This document shows, in pieces, positions 33,789-38,057 of a stretch of DNA of 46,065 bases (its first letter is position 1; each line of letters opens with the position of its first letter). Origin of the DNA: Spirochaetota bacterium (GTDB lineage: Bacteria > Spirochaetota > Spirochaetia > Treponematales > UBA12059). Both the position numbers and the translations under genes were made by a program. The stretch covers positions 1 to 46,065 of the forward strand of contig QKAK01000106.1 of the NCBI GenBank assembly GCA_003247225.1, in the 5' to 3' direction. The notes beneath the pieces are model-generated. The model searched no databases. It was not told where the DNA came from and saw only the letters and a program-made list of their open reading frames with translations.

Positions 33789-34339
33789 TCCGGGATCCCG
33801 TTCGGCGGGATCGATTGCCAGGATCTGGCGTCGGGAGGACGGCGAGCCGGGACGCGCGAGCGCGCGTATATCCGGCGGGGGCAGTCCGTCTCCCTCTTCC
33901 GTACGCGGCCTAGCGGCCGGTCGGGATAGAGCCGGAACGAACTAACGTGAGAAGACGGGAGACCGTCTCTCGCCCCGGGGGCTCCCCGTCCCCGGCGCGG
34001 CGAGCGCGCGCGGCCTTGCGATACTGCGCATGGACGAGCCCGCGCGAGCCGGAACGTATCGGAATCGGGTCTGGAAGGGCCCGGAGGATGGACGAGACCA
34101 TCCGTGCCGATTCTACTGTTTTCCCGTTCTCTGTCTCTCTCGCTATCCATGGGGTCGCGTCGGCCGGTCGGCGGTCTAGACGGCGGCGCCGGATCGAGCG
34201 GGATGCCCGGAAGCGCCGTCGGCGTCGCCGGCGCTATCGCGCATCCCGTTCGATCCGGCCGAACCGGACGGCCGTTCCGGTCCGGCGCTTCCCCTTTATC
34301 GCTACGCCGCCGGAACCCGCGGCGACGGAAGGAGTACGT
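33789..34339 (+). other. 551-bp structured gap between kdd and kce
   Basis: No gene is supported (long open frames here are GC-rich shadows). Near the start is GATCCCG-TTCGG-CGGGATC (33794-33812). A 19-bp inverted repeat (34188-34206 with 34241-34259) matches at 18 of 19 positions, the exception being a G-U-type pair, and encloses a second 7-bp stem (34212-34218 with 34229-34235). It ends about 80 bp before kce. Confidence 0.6.
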
Positions 34340-35167
34340 ATGGCCCTTGAAGGCAAGCTCGTGATCACCTGCGCCTGCACCGGCGCCGAGACCACGAAGG
34401 CCCAGAATCCCGCGTTACCCATAACACCCGACGAGGTGGCCAAGACCGCCGAGGAGTGCCGAGCCGCCGGCGCCGCCATCCTGCACCTGCACGTGCGGAA
34501 CGACGACGGCACCCCGACCGCGAGCGTCGCCCGCTTCAAGGAGGCCATCGAGGCCGTCCGCAGGAAGACCGACATCATCGTCGAGATCACCACCGGCGGC
34601 GCCGTCGGAGACACCGCCGAGGATAGGCTCAGGCCGATCGCCGCCCTCCAGCCGGAGATGGCCAGCCTCGACTGCGGTACCGTCAACTTCGGCGACGAGT
34701 ACATCGTCAACGACCTGCCGACGATGCGCGCCTTCGCCGCCGAGTTCAGGAAGCACAAGGTCCGCGCGACCCTCGAGTGCTTCGACCTCGGCCACGTCTA
34801 CGCGAGCCACTACCTGATCAAGGAAGGGCTGCTCGAGGCTCCCTACCACTACGGCTTCGTGCTCAACGTGCCCGGCGCCGTGCCGTACTCGGTCGAGAAC
34901 CTGTCGGCCTTCATCCGCGCGCTGCCGGCCGGGGCCGACTACACCGTGATGGGCATCGGCCGCTCGTCGCTGCCCGCCCAGTTCGGCGCGATGGCGAACG
35001 GCGGCTGGATACGCGTCGGCTTCGAGGACAACGTGTACTTCTCGAAGGGCGTCCTCGCCAAGAGCAACGCCGAGCTGGTCGAGCGCGCGGCGCGCATAGC
35101 CCATGAGGGCGGCCTCAAGCCGGCGACCCCCGACGAGGTCCGCCAGTACCTGAAGCTACGGGGCTGA
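34340..35167 (+). CDS. kce: 3-keto-5-aminohexanoate cleavage enzyme
   Basis: A 275-aa zinc enzyme of the BKACE family that cleaves 3-keto-5-aminohexanoate with acetyl-CoA to 3-aminobutyryl-CoA and acetoacetate. The metal-binding HLHVR (H49, H51), the substrate loop TTGGA and LECFDLGHVY are in place, and the length is normal. ATG 34340 with GGAAGGAG is preferred. The longer open frame upstream carries arginine-rich, non-family sequence. Confidence 0.95.
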   Translation: MALEGKLVITCACTGAETTKAQNPALPITPDEVAKTAEECRAAGAAILHLHVRNDDGTPTASVARFKEAIEAVRRKTDIIVEITTGGAVGDTAEDRLRPIAALQPEMASLDCGTVNFGDEYIVNDLPTMRAFAAEFRKHKVRATLECFDLGHVYASHYLIKEGLLEAPYHYGFVLNVPGAVPYSVENLSAFIRALPAGADYTVMGIGRSSLPAQFGAMANGGWIRVGFEDNVYFSKGVLAKSNAELVERAARIAHEGGLKPATPDEVRQYLKLRG

Positions 35168-35181
35168 TACCGGGAATATGG

Positions 35182-35284
35182 CCACGGAGTCACGGAGGCA
35201 CGGAGAAGACAGGAGAGTGATTAAGGAAATGAGAAGGTTCCAGGCTTATCCTTTTCTTTCCTCCGCGTCTCCGTGTCTCCGTGG
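35182..35284. repeat. Short element with inverted NCACGGAG 8-mer arrays (no gene)
   Basis: Three 8-mers CCACGGAG, TCACGGAG, GCACGGAG (35182-35205) face their inverted counterparts (35261-35284; one array has a CTCCGCGT unit) across 55 bp of non-coding DNA. It lies between kce and kamA. It looks like a gene-less version of the element behind kamA. Confidence 0.85.
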
Positions 35285-35313
35285 TTGATTTTTGTCTTTA
35301 AGGAGGCTTTCTA

Positions 35314-36609
35314 ATGCATACGTATCCGTCATACGACTATAAGCGCATACCGCTGTACAGGGACGTTACGCCGGAGCAGTGGAACGACTGGCGCTGGCAG
35401 ATGAAGAACGACATCAAGGACGTGGAGACGCTCGCCAAGGTCGTCCCGCTGAGCGACAAGGAGAAGGCCGACATCTCCGAGGTGCTCAAGGTCTTCCGCA
35501 TGGCCATCACGCCGTACTACGCGTCGCTCATCGACCCGGCCAACCCCGGCTGCCCGGTCAGGCTCCAGGCGATCCCGCGCCTGCCCGAGACCCACTTCGA
35601 CGAGAGCGACCAGGACGACCCGCTGCACGAGGACTCCGACAGCCCCGTGCCCGGCCTCACGCACCGCTACCCCGACCGCGTGCTGCTCCTCGTCACCCAT
35701 ATCTGCTCGATGAACTGCCGCCACTGCACCCGCCGCCGCATCGTCGGCGAGGAGGACGCGAACATGCTCGACCACCAGGTCGACGCGGCCATCGAGTACA
35801 TCAGGAAGACCCCGATCATCCGCGACGTGCTGATCTCCGGCGGCGACCCCCTCGTGCTGTCCGACGACAAGCTCGAGCGCATCATCAAGAAGATACGCGA
35901 GATCCCGCACGTCGAGATGATACGCATCGGCACCCGCACGCCGGTGGTCATGCCGCAGCGCATCACCGACGACCTCGTGAACATGCTCAAGAAGTACCAC
36001 CCGCTGTACATCAACACGCACTTCAACCACCCCAAGGAGATAACCGCCGAGGCCCGCGAGGCGTGCCGCAAGCTCGCCGACGCCGGCATCCCCCTCGGGA
36101 ACCAGAGCGTGCTGCTGCGCGACGTCAACGACTGCCCGGTGCTGATGAAGCAGCTCGTGCAGAAGCTGCTGACCATCCGCGTGCGCCCGTACTACATCTA
36201 CCAGTGCGACCTGTCGCGCGGCATCAGCCACTTCCGCACCACGGTGTCCAAGGGCATCGAGATCATCGAGAACCTCCGCGGCCATACGACCGGCCTCGCG
36301 GTGCCGACCTTCGTGGTCGACGCGCCCGGCGGCGGCGGCAAGACCCCGGTGATGCCCGACTACCTGATATCGCAGAACGACAAGCGCGTGATCCTGCGCA
36401 ACTACGAGGGCGTGATCACGACCTACGACGAGCCGGACGGCTACCACGAGGATTGCGGCAAGTGCAGCATCTGCTCCGACGAGCCCCAGCTCAACGCCAC
36501 CTGCGGCGTAGCCAGGCTCCTGTCCGGGGACGACAAGACGCTCGAGCCCAAGAACCTCGTCCGCGCGGCCAGGGGCGATACCAAGTTCATCCCGCGCAAG
36601 CGGAAATAA
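35314..36609 (+). CDS. kamA: Lysine 2,3-aminomutase
   Basis: A 431-aa radical SAM and PLP enzyme that moves the alpha-amino group of L-lysine to give L-beta-lysine. The iron-sulfur motif CSMNCRHC has C131, C135 and C138. The PLP lysine is K343 in GGGGKTPV. The C-terminal CGKCSICS region matches the zinc site known in clostridial enzymes. AAGGAGG lies just before the ATG, inside the right flank of the repeat element. It is bracketed by two NCACGGAG elements, which is unusual for a gene within an operon. Confidence 0.96.
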   Translation: MHTYPSYDYKRIPLYRDVTPEQWNDWRWQMKNDIKDVETLAKVVPLSDKEKADISEVLKVFRMAITPYYASLIDPANPGCPVRLQAIPRLPETHFDESDQDDPLHEDSDSPVPGLTHRYPDRVLLLVTHICSMNCRHCTRRRIVGEEDANMLDHQVDAAIEYIRKTPIIRDVLISGGDPLVLSDDKLERIIKKIREIPHVEMIRIGTRTPVVMPQRITDDLVNMLKKYHPLYINTHFNHPKEITAEAREACRKLADAGIPLGNQSVLLRDVNDCPVLMKQLVQKLLTIRVRPYYIYQCDLSRGISHFRTTVSKGIEIIENLRGHTTGLAVPTFVVDAPGGGGKTPVMPDYLISQNDKRVILRNYEGVITTYDEPDGYHEDCGKCSICSDEPQLNATCGVARLLSGDDKTLEPKNLVRAARGDTKFIPRKRK

Positions 36610-36628
36610 CCGAGATACGAGAAACCCG

Positions 36629-37122
36629 AACCACGGAGACACGGAGTCACGGAGATGGCGCAATGATCATAGGCGATGACTCGATAAGCGCTAAGGTGAT
36701 CGGTTGTTCCATCGCCGTACACCGTGAGCTCGGACCGGGCTTGCTTGAGTCTATTTACGAGGAAGCCCTCTGTATCGAACTCGGCCGTGCCGGGATTCCC
36801 TTCGTTCGGCAAATGGAGCTACCCGTTATCTATAAGGGCGTCCAGCTCTCAGGGGCATTCAGGGTGGATTTGCTTGTCGACAACACCGTGGTGGTGGAGT
36901 TGAAGTGCGTTGATACGATCCTCCCGGTTCATGAGGCTCAGGTTTTATCGTACTTACGCTTGGGTGGATGGAGAATCGGCTTGCTTATCAATTTTAAATC
37001 CGCTGTACTTAAGAACGGGATCCGTAGGGTCTTATTATGAGCCATACTCCAAGCTCTACAATCATGGTGCGCTTTGGCCTTGAAACGTTTTGCATCCTCC
37101 GTGCCTCCGTGTCTCCGTGGTT
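36629..37122 (+). mobile_element. NCACGGAG-flanked cassette carrying a GxxExxY gene
   Basis: A left array of CCACGGAG, ACACGGAG and TCACGGAG (36631-36654) faces a nearly perfect inverted array (37097-37120), matching at 23 of 24 positions, and the match extends by AA/TT outside. The only gene inside is the 125-aa GxxExxY protein. The GC content inside is visibly lower than in the flanking kam genes. No target duplication is seen. The mechanism of movement is unknown. Confidence 0.75.
36663..37040 (+). CDS. GxxExxY protein (PD-(D/E)XK_3 family)
   Basis: A 125-aa protein. The naming motif is GLLESIY (26-32). The nuclease-like core is D69 in RVDLLV, ELK at 79-81 and Q93xxxY97, an arrangement of the PD-(D/E)XK fold. 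Nuclease activity is not proven for the family as far as I know. The start ATG 36663 uses the GGAG of the last 8-mer as its ribosome site. The gene is inserted between kamA and kamB and has a lower GC content and different codon use from them, so transfer is likely. Confidence 0.88.
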   Translation: MIIGDDSISAKVIGCSIAVHRELGPGLLESIYEEALCIELGRAGIPFVRQMELPVIYKGVQLSGAFRVDLLVDNTVVVELKCVDTILPVHEAQVLSYLRLGGWRIGLLINFKSAVLKNGIRRVLL

Positions 37123-37145
37123 GTCTTCGGCGGAAAGGGCTCGAC

Positions 37146-38057
37146 ATGCTCGATAGGCCCGAGGATTTCGTCGGCAGGGTCACCTTCGTGACCGGGCCGG
37201 AGAAGCATTGCGGGAAGACGACCTTCATGAACCGGGCCGCGGCCCTTGCGCGGCGCGGCGCGCGGGAGTCGGGGAGGCCCGCTCCCGCCCTGCTGACCGT
37301 CGGCTACGACGGCGAGGCGCGCGACTTCCTGTCCGGAGCCCGCAAGCCCGCGGTCCCGGTCGAGCCGGGCGACCTCGTCGTCACCACGGAGCGCTTCGCC
37401 AGGCCCTGCTCGCCTGAGATCCTGGACGCGCTGCCCGGCTCGACGGCGCTCGGCCGCCTCTGCGTCGCCCGGGCCGGCCGGCCGGCGACCGTCGCCCTGG
37501 TCGGCCCCGAGGGCAATTCCCTAGTCGCCTGGGCCGTCCGGCGCATCCTCGACGACGGCCTGGCCGATACCGTCCTGGTCGACGGCGCGATCAACCGCGT
37601 GACCCAGGCCGCCTCGATAGACGGCGCGCGCTTCGTCTACGCGGTCCGCGTCGACGCCGCCGGCCTCGATCGCTCGGTATCGCGGGTGCGGCGCATGGCC
37701 GCGCTCGCCGGCCTGCCCCTAGCCTCGGCCGACGCGCCGGTAGGGGGCGGGGAAGGCGCTTGCGGCAGGGTCGCCGTCTCCGGCGCGCTGACCGCCGAGA
37801 CCGCGGCCAGGCTGCCGCCTTCCGCCGAGGAGGTCGTCGTCGACGACTTCACCAAGGTCTTCCTGTCGGACGCCGAGCTGGCCGCCTTCACCCGAGGCCG
37901 GCGGCTCCTCGTCGCCAGGCGGGTCGAATTCGGCGGCTTCGTCGTCGCGTGCCGCGGCCTGTCCGACGACGCGTTCCTGGAACGGCTTGCCGACGACTCT
38001 ATAGCCGCGGCGGTCGCGTTCAACCCCTACGAGGAACGGCCGGGGAGGGCCGCGTGA
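37146..38057 (+). CDS. kamB: KamB-like P-loop protein of the lysine 5,6-aminomutase cluster
   Basis: A 303-aa protein with a Walker A-like loop GPEKHCGKTT (17-26). The location between kamA and kamC fits the conserved kamB position in lysine fermentation clusters. I name it from position and the P-loop; the sequence itself I do not know well. A role in assembly or reactivation of the adenosylcobalamin mutase is a family-level idea, not shown here. The start at ATG 37146 follows GGAAAGG, and the frame upstream runs through the repeat array. Its stop overlaps the kamC start by one base. Confidence 0.7.
   Translation: MLDRPEDFVGRVTFVTGPEKHCGKTTFMNRAAALARRGARESGRPAPALLTVGYDGEARDFLSGARKPAVPVEPGDLVVTTERFARPCSPEILDALPGSTALGRLCVARAGRPATVALVGPEGNSLVAWAVRRILDDGLADTVLVDGAINRVTQAASIDGARFVYAVRVDAAGLDRSVSRVRRMAALAGLPLASADAPVGGGEGACGRVAVSGALTAETAARLPPSAEEVVVDDFTKVFLSDAELAAFTRGRRLLVARRVEFGGFVVACRGLSDDAFLERLADDSIAAAVAFNPYEERPGRAA

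Follow-up and report, generated by a model that had tools for sequence, protein, structure and literature searches.

Here, we describe a pair of hairpin elements found in a stretch of 46,065 nucleotides (contig QKAK01000106.1 of assembly GCA_003247225.1, from a Spirochaetota bacterium; the whole stretch is hereafter called the window), where they fill two gaps of a lysine-fermentation operon whose gene order, according to profile searches, is kce-kamA-kamB-kamC (Table 1). The element between kce and kamA carries no gene, and the element between kamA and kamB encloses a small gene of the GxxExxY family between inverted arrays of a seven-letter unit, CACGGAG. An earlier note on this DNA had described the same inverted arrays in both gaps around kamA and a nuclease-like gene following kamA; both observations stand, and the gene matches the GxxExxY model TIGR04256 (E 1e-43, 148.4 bits versus a cut-off of 35) and PF13366, PDDEXK_3 (E 1.7e-42, 144.9 bits versus a cut-off of 22), each over its full model length. 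Throughout, G000 denotes the window's genome, a 3.38-Mb draft, other G numbers are draft genomes of relatives, and L numbers are loci.

Table 1. Elements, arrays, and genes of the kam region in the window
Feature	Position	Strand	Remarks
Gene-less hairpin element, kce-kamA gap	35179..35287	.	109 bp; inward-facing CACGGAGN arrays
Left array, gene-less element	35183..35205	+	3 CACGGAG units at 35183, 35191, and 35199; 8-bp period
Right array, gene-less element	35261..35283	-	exact units at 35269 and 35277; decayed third (CTCCGCG) at 35261
Gene-bearing element, kamA-kamB gap	36628..37123	.	~500 bp; 26-nt arms, 96% complementary
Left array, gene-bearing element	36632..36654	+	3 CACGGAG units at 36632, 36640, and 36648
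Right array, gene-bearing element	37097..37119	-	3 CACGGAG units at 37097, 37105, and 37113; 56 bp past the stop codon
GxxExxY gene	36663..37040	+	125 aa; predicted PD-(D/E)XK nuclease; among solved structures, the fold is closest to Cas4
kce (3-keto-5-aminohexanoate cleavage enzyme)	34340..35167	+	outside the element; NF052387 368 bits, slightly below the cut-off of 382; PF05853
kamA (lysine 2,3-aminomutase)	35314..36609	+	operon context, not cargo; TIGR03820 625 bits; synteny
kamB-like	37146..38057	+	operon context; NF052386 110 bits, below the cut-off of 210

The interior of the gene-less element is purine-rich and then pyrimidine-rich, and its 111-nt RNA folds at -57.9 kcal/mol (z -6.9); in the gene-bearing cassette, the arms pair on folding (z -4.7). 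As the earlier note proposed, the last unit of the cassette's left array may plausibly serve as the ribosome binding site of the GxxExxY gene, because its GGAG ends 8 nt upstream of the ATG (by eye). An Rfam scan of the window found a tRNA and nothing else. A known Rfam identity for the elements was rejected, the weak matches to plant and animal microRNAs lying far below their cut-offs.

The element family in the window's genome

Single CACGGAG words are barely more frequent in the window than expected by chance (14 versus 9.2, a count reached by 6 of 100 shuffles). The genome-wide search for arrays that the earlier note had recommended gives 77 matches to the tandem form, CACGGAGNCACGGAG, in G000, as compared with 2 for the reversed control, and we read these as 31 elements (2 inside the window and 29 outside), a few of which have one arm decayed or missing. 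Their arms are GAACCACGGAGNCACGGAGNCACGGAG or near it, and one GxxExxY gene was found in this genome. Thirty are listed outside the window, but one is a repeat, the element shared by the ends of contigs C8 and C14, which leaves 29. This overlap (L032, L034) marks an assembly break inside a hairpin element, and contigs C131, C164, and C174 each have an element at most about 400 bp from an end; since contig ends fall in or near elements, the counts are possibly low.

In most of the 25 elements measured, the interior is rich in purines on its left and in pyrimidines on its right; otherwise, the interiors of 28 G000 elements are dissimilar. A templated, telomerase-like addition of the arrays was considered and then abandoned, because the eighth base varies (G 29, A 28, C 6, and T 5). 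Copying from one arm of an element to the other was likewise rejected, given that the spacer letters on the left and right vary freely (by eye).

With gene orientation taken from open reading frames picked by their bias in third-position GC content (GC3), 22 of the 31 elements lie between co-directional genes and 5 between convergent genes, 4 are undecided, and none is placed between divergent genes or within a gene. The layout is that of REPINs, that is, many inverted-pair hairpins in extragenic space.

The GxxExxY protein and its arrays in other genomes

The predicted nuclease active site (D, E-x-K) is retained in the window's GxxExxY protein. Residues G26, E29, Y32, D69, E79, K81, Q93, and Y97 are invariant in 30 Spirochaetota GxxExxY sequences, and in a 77-row alignment, D69 and E79 are invariant and K81 is kept in at least 90% of the rows. 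An AlphaFold2 model based on 77 sequences has a predicted local distance difference test score (pLDDT) of 94.9, and the best Foldseek match for this model is Cas4 SSO0001 (4ic1; probability 1.00, E 0.0016), followed by lambda exonuclease and LHK-Exo; no match reached E ≤ 0.001. A second structure comparison sets 4ic1 apart (Z 9.6; next 7.7), and the group at Z 7.7 and below, a range that the tool grades as middling, mixes restriction enzymes with Hjc resolvase (6.9), other Cas4 proteins (6.5), and LHK-Exo (6.3). A sequence search of the PDB returned no relative.

The conserved residues D69, E79-x-K81, and Q93-x3-Y97 suit the Cas4 and lambda exonuclease branch. The active-site layout D, E-x-K, Q-x3-Y, along with the fold, is common to GxxExxY and the Cas4, lambda exonuclease, and RecB proteins. 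Cas4 proteins, however, possess a four-cysteine cluster, whereas the GxxExxY protein has three scattered cysteines (by eye) and no such cluster, is only 125 aa long, and has no CRISPR or recombinase gene among its identified neighbors. One pipeline is described as having called a GxxExxY domain where another tool called cas4 (PMC8934634), and an algal virus reportedly encodes a GxxExxY protein (PMC12085832). A role for the family was not found in the open-access literature searched. Among mobile replicons, matches to the window protein are rare, with 0 of 50,697 phage records (INPHARED) and 8 of 72,556 plasmid records.

A match to GxxExxY is present in 69 of 296 Spirochaetota genomes, and most of 30 such loci whose flanks were inspected by eye have inverted arrays of short units with variable letters; these 30 are more diverse than the 80 loci used for testing the link. 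The latter are the best 80 of 579 confirmed GxxExxY loci, so that the results apply to sequences close to the query type, and they include Bacteroidetes, Verrucomicrobia, Planctomycetes, classes of Proteobacteria, Chloroflexota, Acidobacteria, a cyanobacterium (Stenomitos), an archaeon (Methanothrix), and others. When a tandem C[AG]C[AG][AG]A[GT] pair was sought at most 140 bp from the gene, arrays were seen on both sides at 42 loci and on one side at 30 (i.e., 72 of 80 with at least one), as compared with 2.4% one-sided and no two-sided cases among 861 random placements. The two-sided arrays face inward at 33 loci and outward at 6, with 3 in other arrangements. In a motif-free inverted-repeat test, 48 of 78 loci (two of the 80 being too short), and 8 of 14 GxxExxY loci in the window's family, were at or above the 99th percentile of the null. 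The link between GxxExxY genes and arrays elsewhere, on which the earlier note had made its proposal depend, is general across phyla. No description of a link between GxxExxY and repeats was found in a search confined to the open-access literature, where the array letters had 0 matches.

The spelling of the unit differs from genome to genome. Counted as CACGGAG/CACAGAG pairs, the values are 77/0 in G000, 49/2 in G005, 28/0 in G001, 6/8 in G003, 5/95 in G006, 8/56 in G017, 201/9 in G019, 143/4 in G021, and 0/25 in G022. Pairs of a third spelling, ACAGGAT, are commonest in G020 (49), where units of this spelling lie upstream of the gene and no right arm was seen; such pairs also occur without a known gene of that spelling in G022 (19), G015 (15), and G016 (12).

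Nine genomes carry a GxxExxY gene at the kam operon, either in the kamA-kamB gap (G000, G005, G003, and G002, where it is cut short) or immediately upstream of kce (G017, G008, G019, G021, and G022, with a remnant in G012). Across these nine, the spelling of the gene's arms goes with that of the arrays elsewhere in its genome (Spearman 0.86, permutation p 0.003), with the caveat that the genomes are not independent, G003 is tied, G008 is mixed, and G002 rests on three pairs. The resident gene's arms, in other words, mostly match the gene-less copies of their own genome. Eight of the kam-operon genes form one clade (support 95/82), the ninth (G021) being too short for the tree, and seven other GxxExxY copies of the window's family fall on other branches; this tree points to vertical inheritance of the kam-operon gene within the window's family.

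Turnover of the elements and how they may spread

Of the 31 sites in G000, 29 were compared across four relatives, and 28 could be resolved in G005, 25 in G007, 11 in G006, and 5 in G001; the two elements of the window were compared at the kam operon only, and several assignments to a class (same, other, or empty) were made by eye. The close relative G005 has the same element at 20 sites, another element at 4, and none at 3, with 1 (L039) unassigned, and at L036:3273, it has the same arms around a different interior. Empty sites, which the earlier note had advised comparing, are thus on record at L038:2734, L043, and L055; two of them are empty in G007 too. G005 and G007 have like junctions at the empty L038:2734 and L043, each a tight gap from stop to start. 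In G007, 10 of the 25 sites are empty and 15 hold other sequence, mostly hairpin-like with other units (by eye). All 11 resolved sites in G006 have at least one exact CACAGAG unit, and of the 5 sites in G001, 2 have interiors that are alike in part, while the others are a different element, a single arm, and an empty site. It follows from this comparison that the gaps are refilled by unlike elements, and nested arms at L038:2050, L039, L040, and several sites in G006 suggest that elements have inserted into older ones. A second hairpin family was observed in G007 (L304, L308, and L311), with GTGTGAGT-type arms and, in two of three copies, a GATACGCTATC centre; these hairpins occupy gaps orthologous to those of CACGGAG elements in G000.

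The reading that we favor, and to which we give an even chance, is that of a two-component hairpin-repeat system resembling REPIN/RAYT, with a resident nuclease gene and many hairpins, in which the protein would recognize the arms and spread the elements. It draws on the cross-phylum link, the gene-less relatives, the insertion polymorphism, the match in spelling in most genomes of one clade, and the predicted nuclease fold; action of the nuclease on the arms, and their spread by it, would be the further step. The resident GxxExxY gene, vertically inherited at the kam operon in the window's family, lies between inverted short-unit arrays, and dozens of gene-less hairpins with like arms are scattered in 3'-end and operon gaps. 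The protein may recognize the arms in single-stranded, folded form or as a cruciform, and cutting or trimming by it could let elements insert, or be recopied, at a low rate and in many cases at or within older ones. The arms would co-evolve with the protein, and we propose that each genome has its own unit spelling as a result.

RAYTs are described in PMC8049555 and PMC3116915 as single-copy genes, inherited vertically, that replicate REPINs at very low rates. The likeness to that system (PMC3116915, PMC8049555) lies in a vertically inherited, repeat-associated gene and in many non-autonomous inverted-pair hairpins in extragenic space. The differences are that the enzyme here is a predicted PD-(D/E)XK nuclease rather than a Y1 transposase, that the arms are tandem arrays of a seven-letter unit rather than one REP, and that the GxxExxY gene sits within one of the elements and, in some genomes, has several copies. 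The Y1 (HUH) transposase PF01797 was not found in G000 or in seven more of 23 genomes, including the array-bearing G003, G016, G017, and G022, and a Y1 enzyme was therefore rejected as the mobilizer in G000. Ten Y1 loci have no such arrays at their ends (scores 5–16, one flank incomplete), and G013 has five Y1 genes and no array of the first two spellings. Because the layout is largely common but the defining Y1 gene was not found in G000, the system would work like REPIN/RAYT without being one. Repeats of GGGGACAGA or AGGGACAGAG were seen upstream of the RAYT-like Y1 genes at L331, L335, L336, L338, and L339, perhaps a separate REP-like system in the window's family. Miniature inverted-repeat transposable elements (MITEs) are similar in being short, gene-less, and dispersed, with inverted termini; the elements here differ from them in that there is no known transposase partner, no target-site duplication was seen, and interiors are not shared between copies.

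Several observations weigh against the favored reading. Arrays occur in genomes with no GxxExxY match, namely, G015 (96% complete; 33 CACGGAG or CACAGAG pairs and 15 ACAGGAT pairs), G016 (99%; 7 and 12), G006 (64%; 100 and 11), and G001 (79%; 28 pairs), and conversely, G013 and G010 carry the gene but have no more than 2 pairs of the three spellings searched for. The arms in G008 are of mixed spelling, and G014 has a gene with ACAGGAT arms, but 4 of that genome's 5 ACAGGAT pairs adjoin the gene itself. Some genomes have more than one match to the gene (6 in G012 and 14 in G322, counting fragments), 8 of the 80 GxxExxY loci have no array by the motif test, and 12 of 30 loci of an unrelated gene type, S23, which is not known to include nucleases, reach the null 99th percentile in the inverted-repeat test. 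At 10 sites with an empty relative, insertions bring 12–43 bp of unconserved flank per side, and no target-site duplication was seen, though divergence may conceal short ones.

A puzzle concerns the donors. For 7 G000 interiors that are absent or different in G005, no donor was found in G000, G005, G007, or G001; apart from the overlapping contigs, the only extra matches were of low complexity, a weak one of 38 bases in G000 and two of 19 bases elsewhere, and as a control, the search recovered three interiors in G005. The 378 pairs of G000 interiors share nothing except low-complexity runs. Because each interior matched its own place only, the new insertions do not resemble recent copies of a resident element, and whole-element copy-paste from a resident donor was rejected in view of the unique interiors, though a donor below about 85% identity could escape the search. 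Possibly the donors have been lost, are missing from the assembly, have diverged, or reside in other strains; alternatively, the mechanism may leave interiors uncopied. The earlier note had seen the two elements of the window as an autonomous element and its non-autonomous relative: they do look like gene-bearing and gene-less members of one family, but autonomy would be a conjecture, given the missing donors and the four array-bearing genomes without a GxxExxY match.

The link gives GxxExxY a defined candidate DNA substrate across many phyla, which makes the function of a widespread family directly testable, and where congeneric species differ in spelling at orthologous gaps, they offer a natural experiment in the co-evolution of enzyme and site. 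If GxxExxY does spread the hairpins, the system would be the equivalent of REPIN/RAYT without a transposase, and it would hint at how S23 intervening sequences reached rRNA genes. A bolder version, which we advance tentatively and rather doubt, is that of a bacteria-wide hairpin mobile DNA driven by a tiny Cas4-like nuclease instead of a transposase. In this version, the enzyme would recognize the short-unit arrays at the element ends, the spelling would shift genome-wide along with the resident enzyme, new elements would receive fresh interiors instead of being copied in full, and S23 genes would be a parallel branch with seven-letter units.

The S23 genes also figure in the first alternative, in which hairpins are spread or maintained by some other factor (from the host or an unlinked gene), and GxxExxY and S23 are cargo or regulators that settled between the arms, as in the intervening sequences of 23S rRNA. 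In PMC4990558, these sequences are described as selfish, with hypothesized mobility, and as carrying a small open reading frame in the loop closed by a long terminal stem. The window's cassette likewise has a small open reading frame within a long terminal stem, but it lies in a gap of a protein-coding operon, has array arms, and encodes GxxExxY rather than S23. S23-type four-helix-bundle genes (TIGR02436) in Spirochaetota (L218–L247) often sit between inverted arrays of ~7-bp units (e.g., TGAGACG, ATTACNA, and ATTCCTG) whose spelling differs by genome, so the architecture is not exclusive to GxxExxY; searches of the open-access literature on S23 and flanking repeats showed nothing on the link between GxxExxY and arrays either. 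That two unrelated families occupy one architecture is what a passenger role would lead one to expect, as are the array-bearing genomes without the gene, the want of donors for recent insertions, and those genes that lie between elements rather than inside one (the 6 outward-facing cases among the 42 two-sided loci). Against it, the active-site residues of GxxExxY are kept over great divergence, gene-arm and genome spelling agree in most of the nine genomes, and the unit letters around S23 genes differ from those around GxxExxY genes (by eye). We regard a passenger role as possible but unlikely.

It is distinctly improbable, in our judgement, that the stem-loops are simply mRNA structures selected at 3' ends and operon gaps for stability, processing, or termination, with the nuclease gene incidental. 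The placement of the 31 elements (none divergent, none intragenic), the strong fold of the gene-less element, and the filling of the kce-kamA gap, mostly by unlike elements, in 15 of 18 family genomes (by eye) are all in keeping with such a role. The absence from divergent gaps, however, also fits selection against hits to promoters, and the cross-phylum gene link, the genome-wide differences in spelling, and the empty sites are left unexplained.

The kam operon in relatives

The gene-less kce-kamA element is also found in G005, and other relatives have other elements or none. Among the 18 family genomes in which both genes were seen, the three with an unfilled gap have 6–70 bp between kce and kamA, and seven genomes of another family have 7–50 bp. 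The order kce-kamA-kamB is retained in ten relatives without an array element in the kce-kamA gap, and the kce-kamA element is present without a kamA-kamB element in, e.g., G016, G012, and G019. At 28 kamA loci, whether or not elements are present, kce adjoins in 25 and kamB in 26; kce was not seen at three loci and kamB at two, some of them at contig ends. The suggestion of the earlier note that the pair of elements could move kamA as a unit did not survive this comparison, and kamA as cargo was rejected because the operon is intact in relatives without elements. A composite transposon in which two elements flank and move kamA has scarcely any claim left, for although the arms at 35182-35205 and 37097-37120 are 96% complementary, kce and kamB adjoin kamA with or without elements at nearly all of the 28 loci, and the kce-kamA element stands alone in several genomes.

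Two further observations concern these gaps and the region upstream. In the kce-kamA gap, G016 (L067) and G008 (L085), which belong to two genera, have in common a long palindromic filler, GATCCGAGCTGGCGCAGGATCGCAGGGTCCGGGG, that lies between the array arms. The kce leader (33868-34259), which has no match in Rfam, is a candidate structured leader RNA: there is a 34-nt inverted repeat at 34188-34259, and stretches like GGCGGGGGCAGTCCGTCTCC and GGGGGCTCCCCGTCCCCGGCGC in the leader reappear before kamA in G004 (L066).
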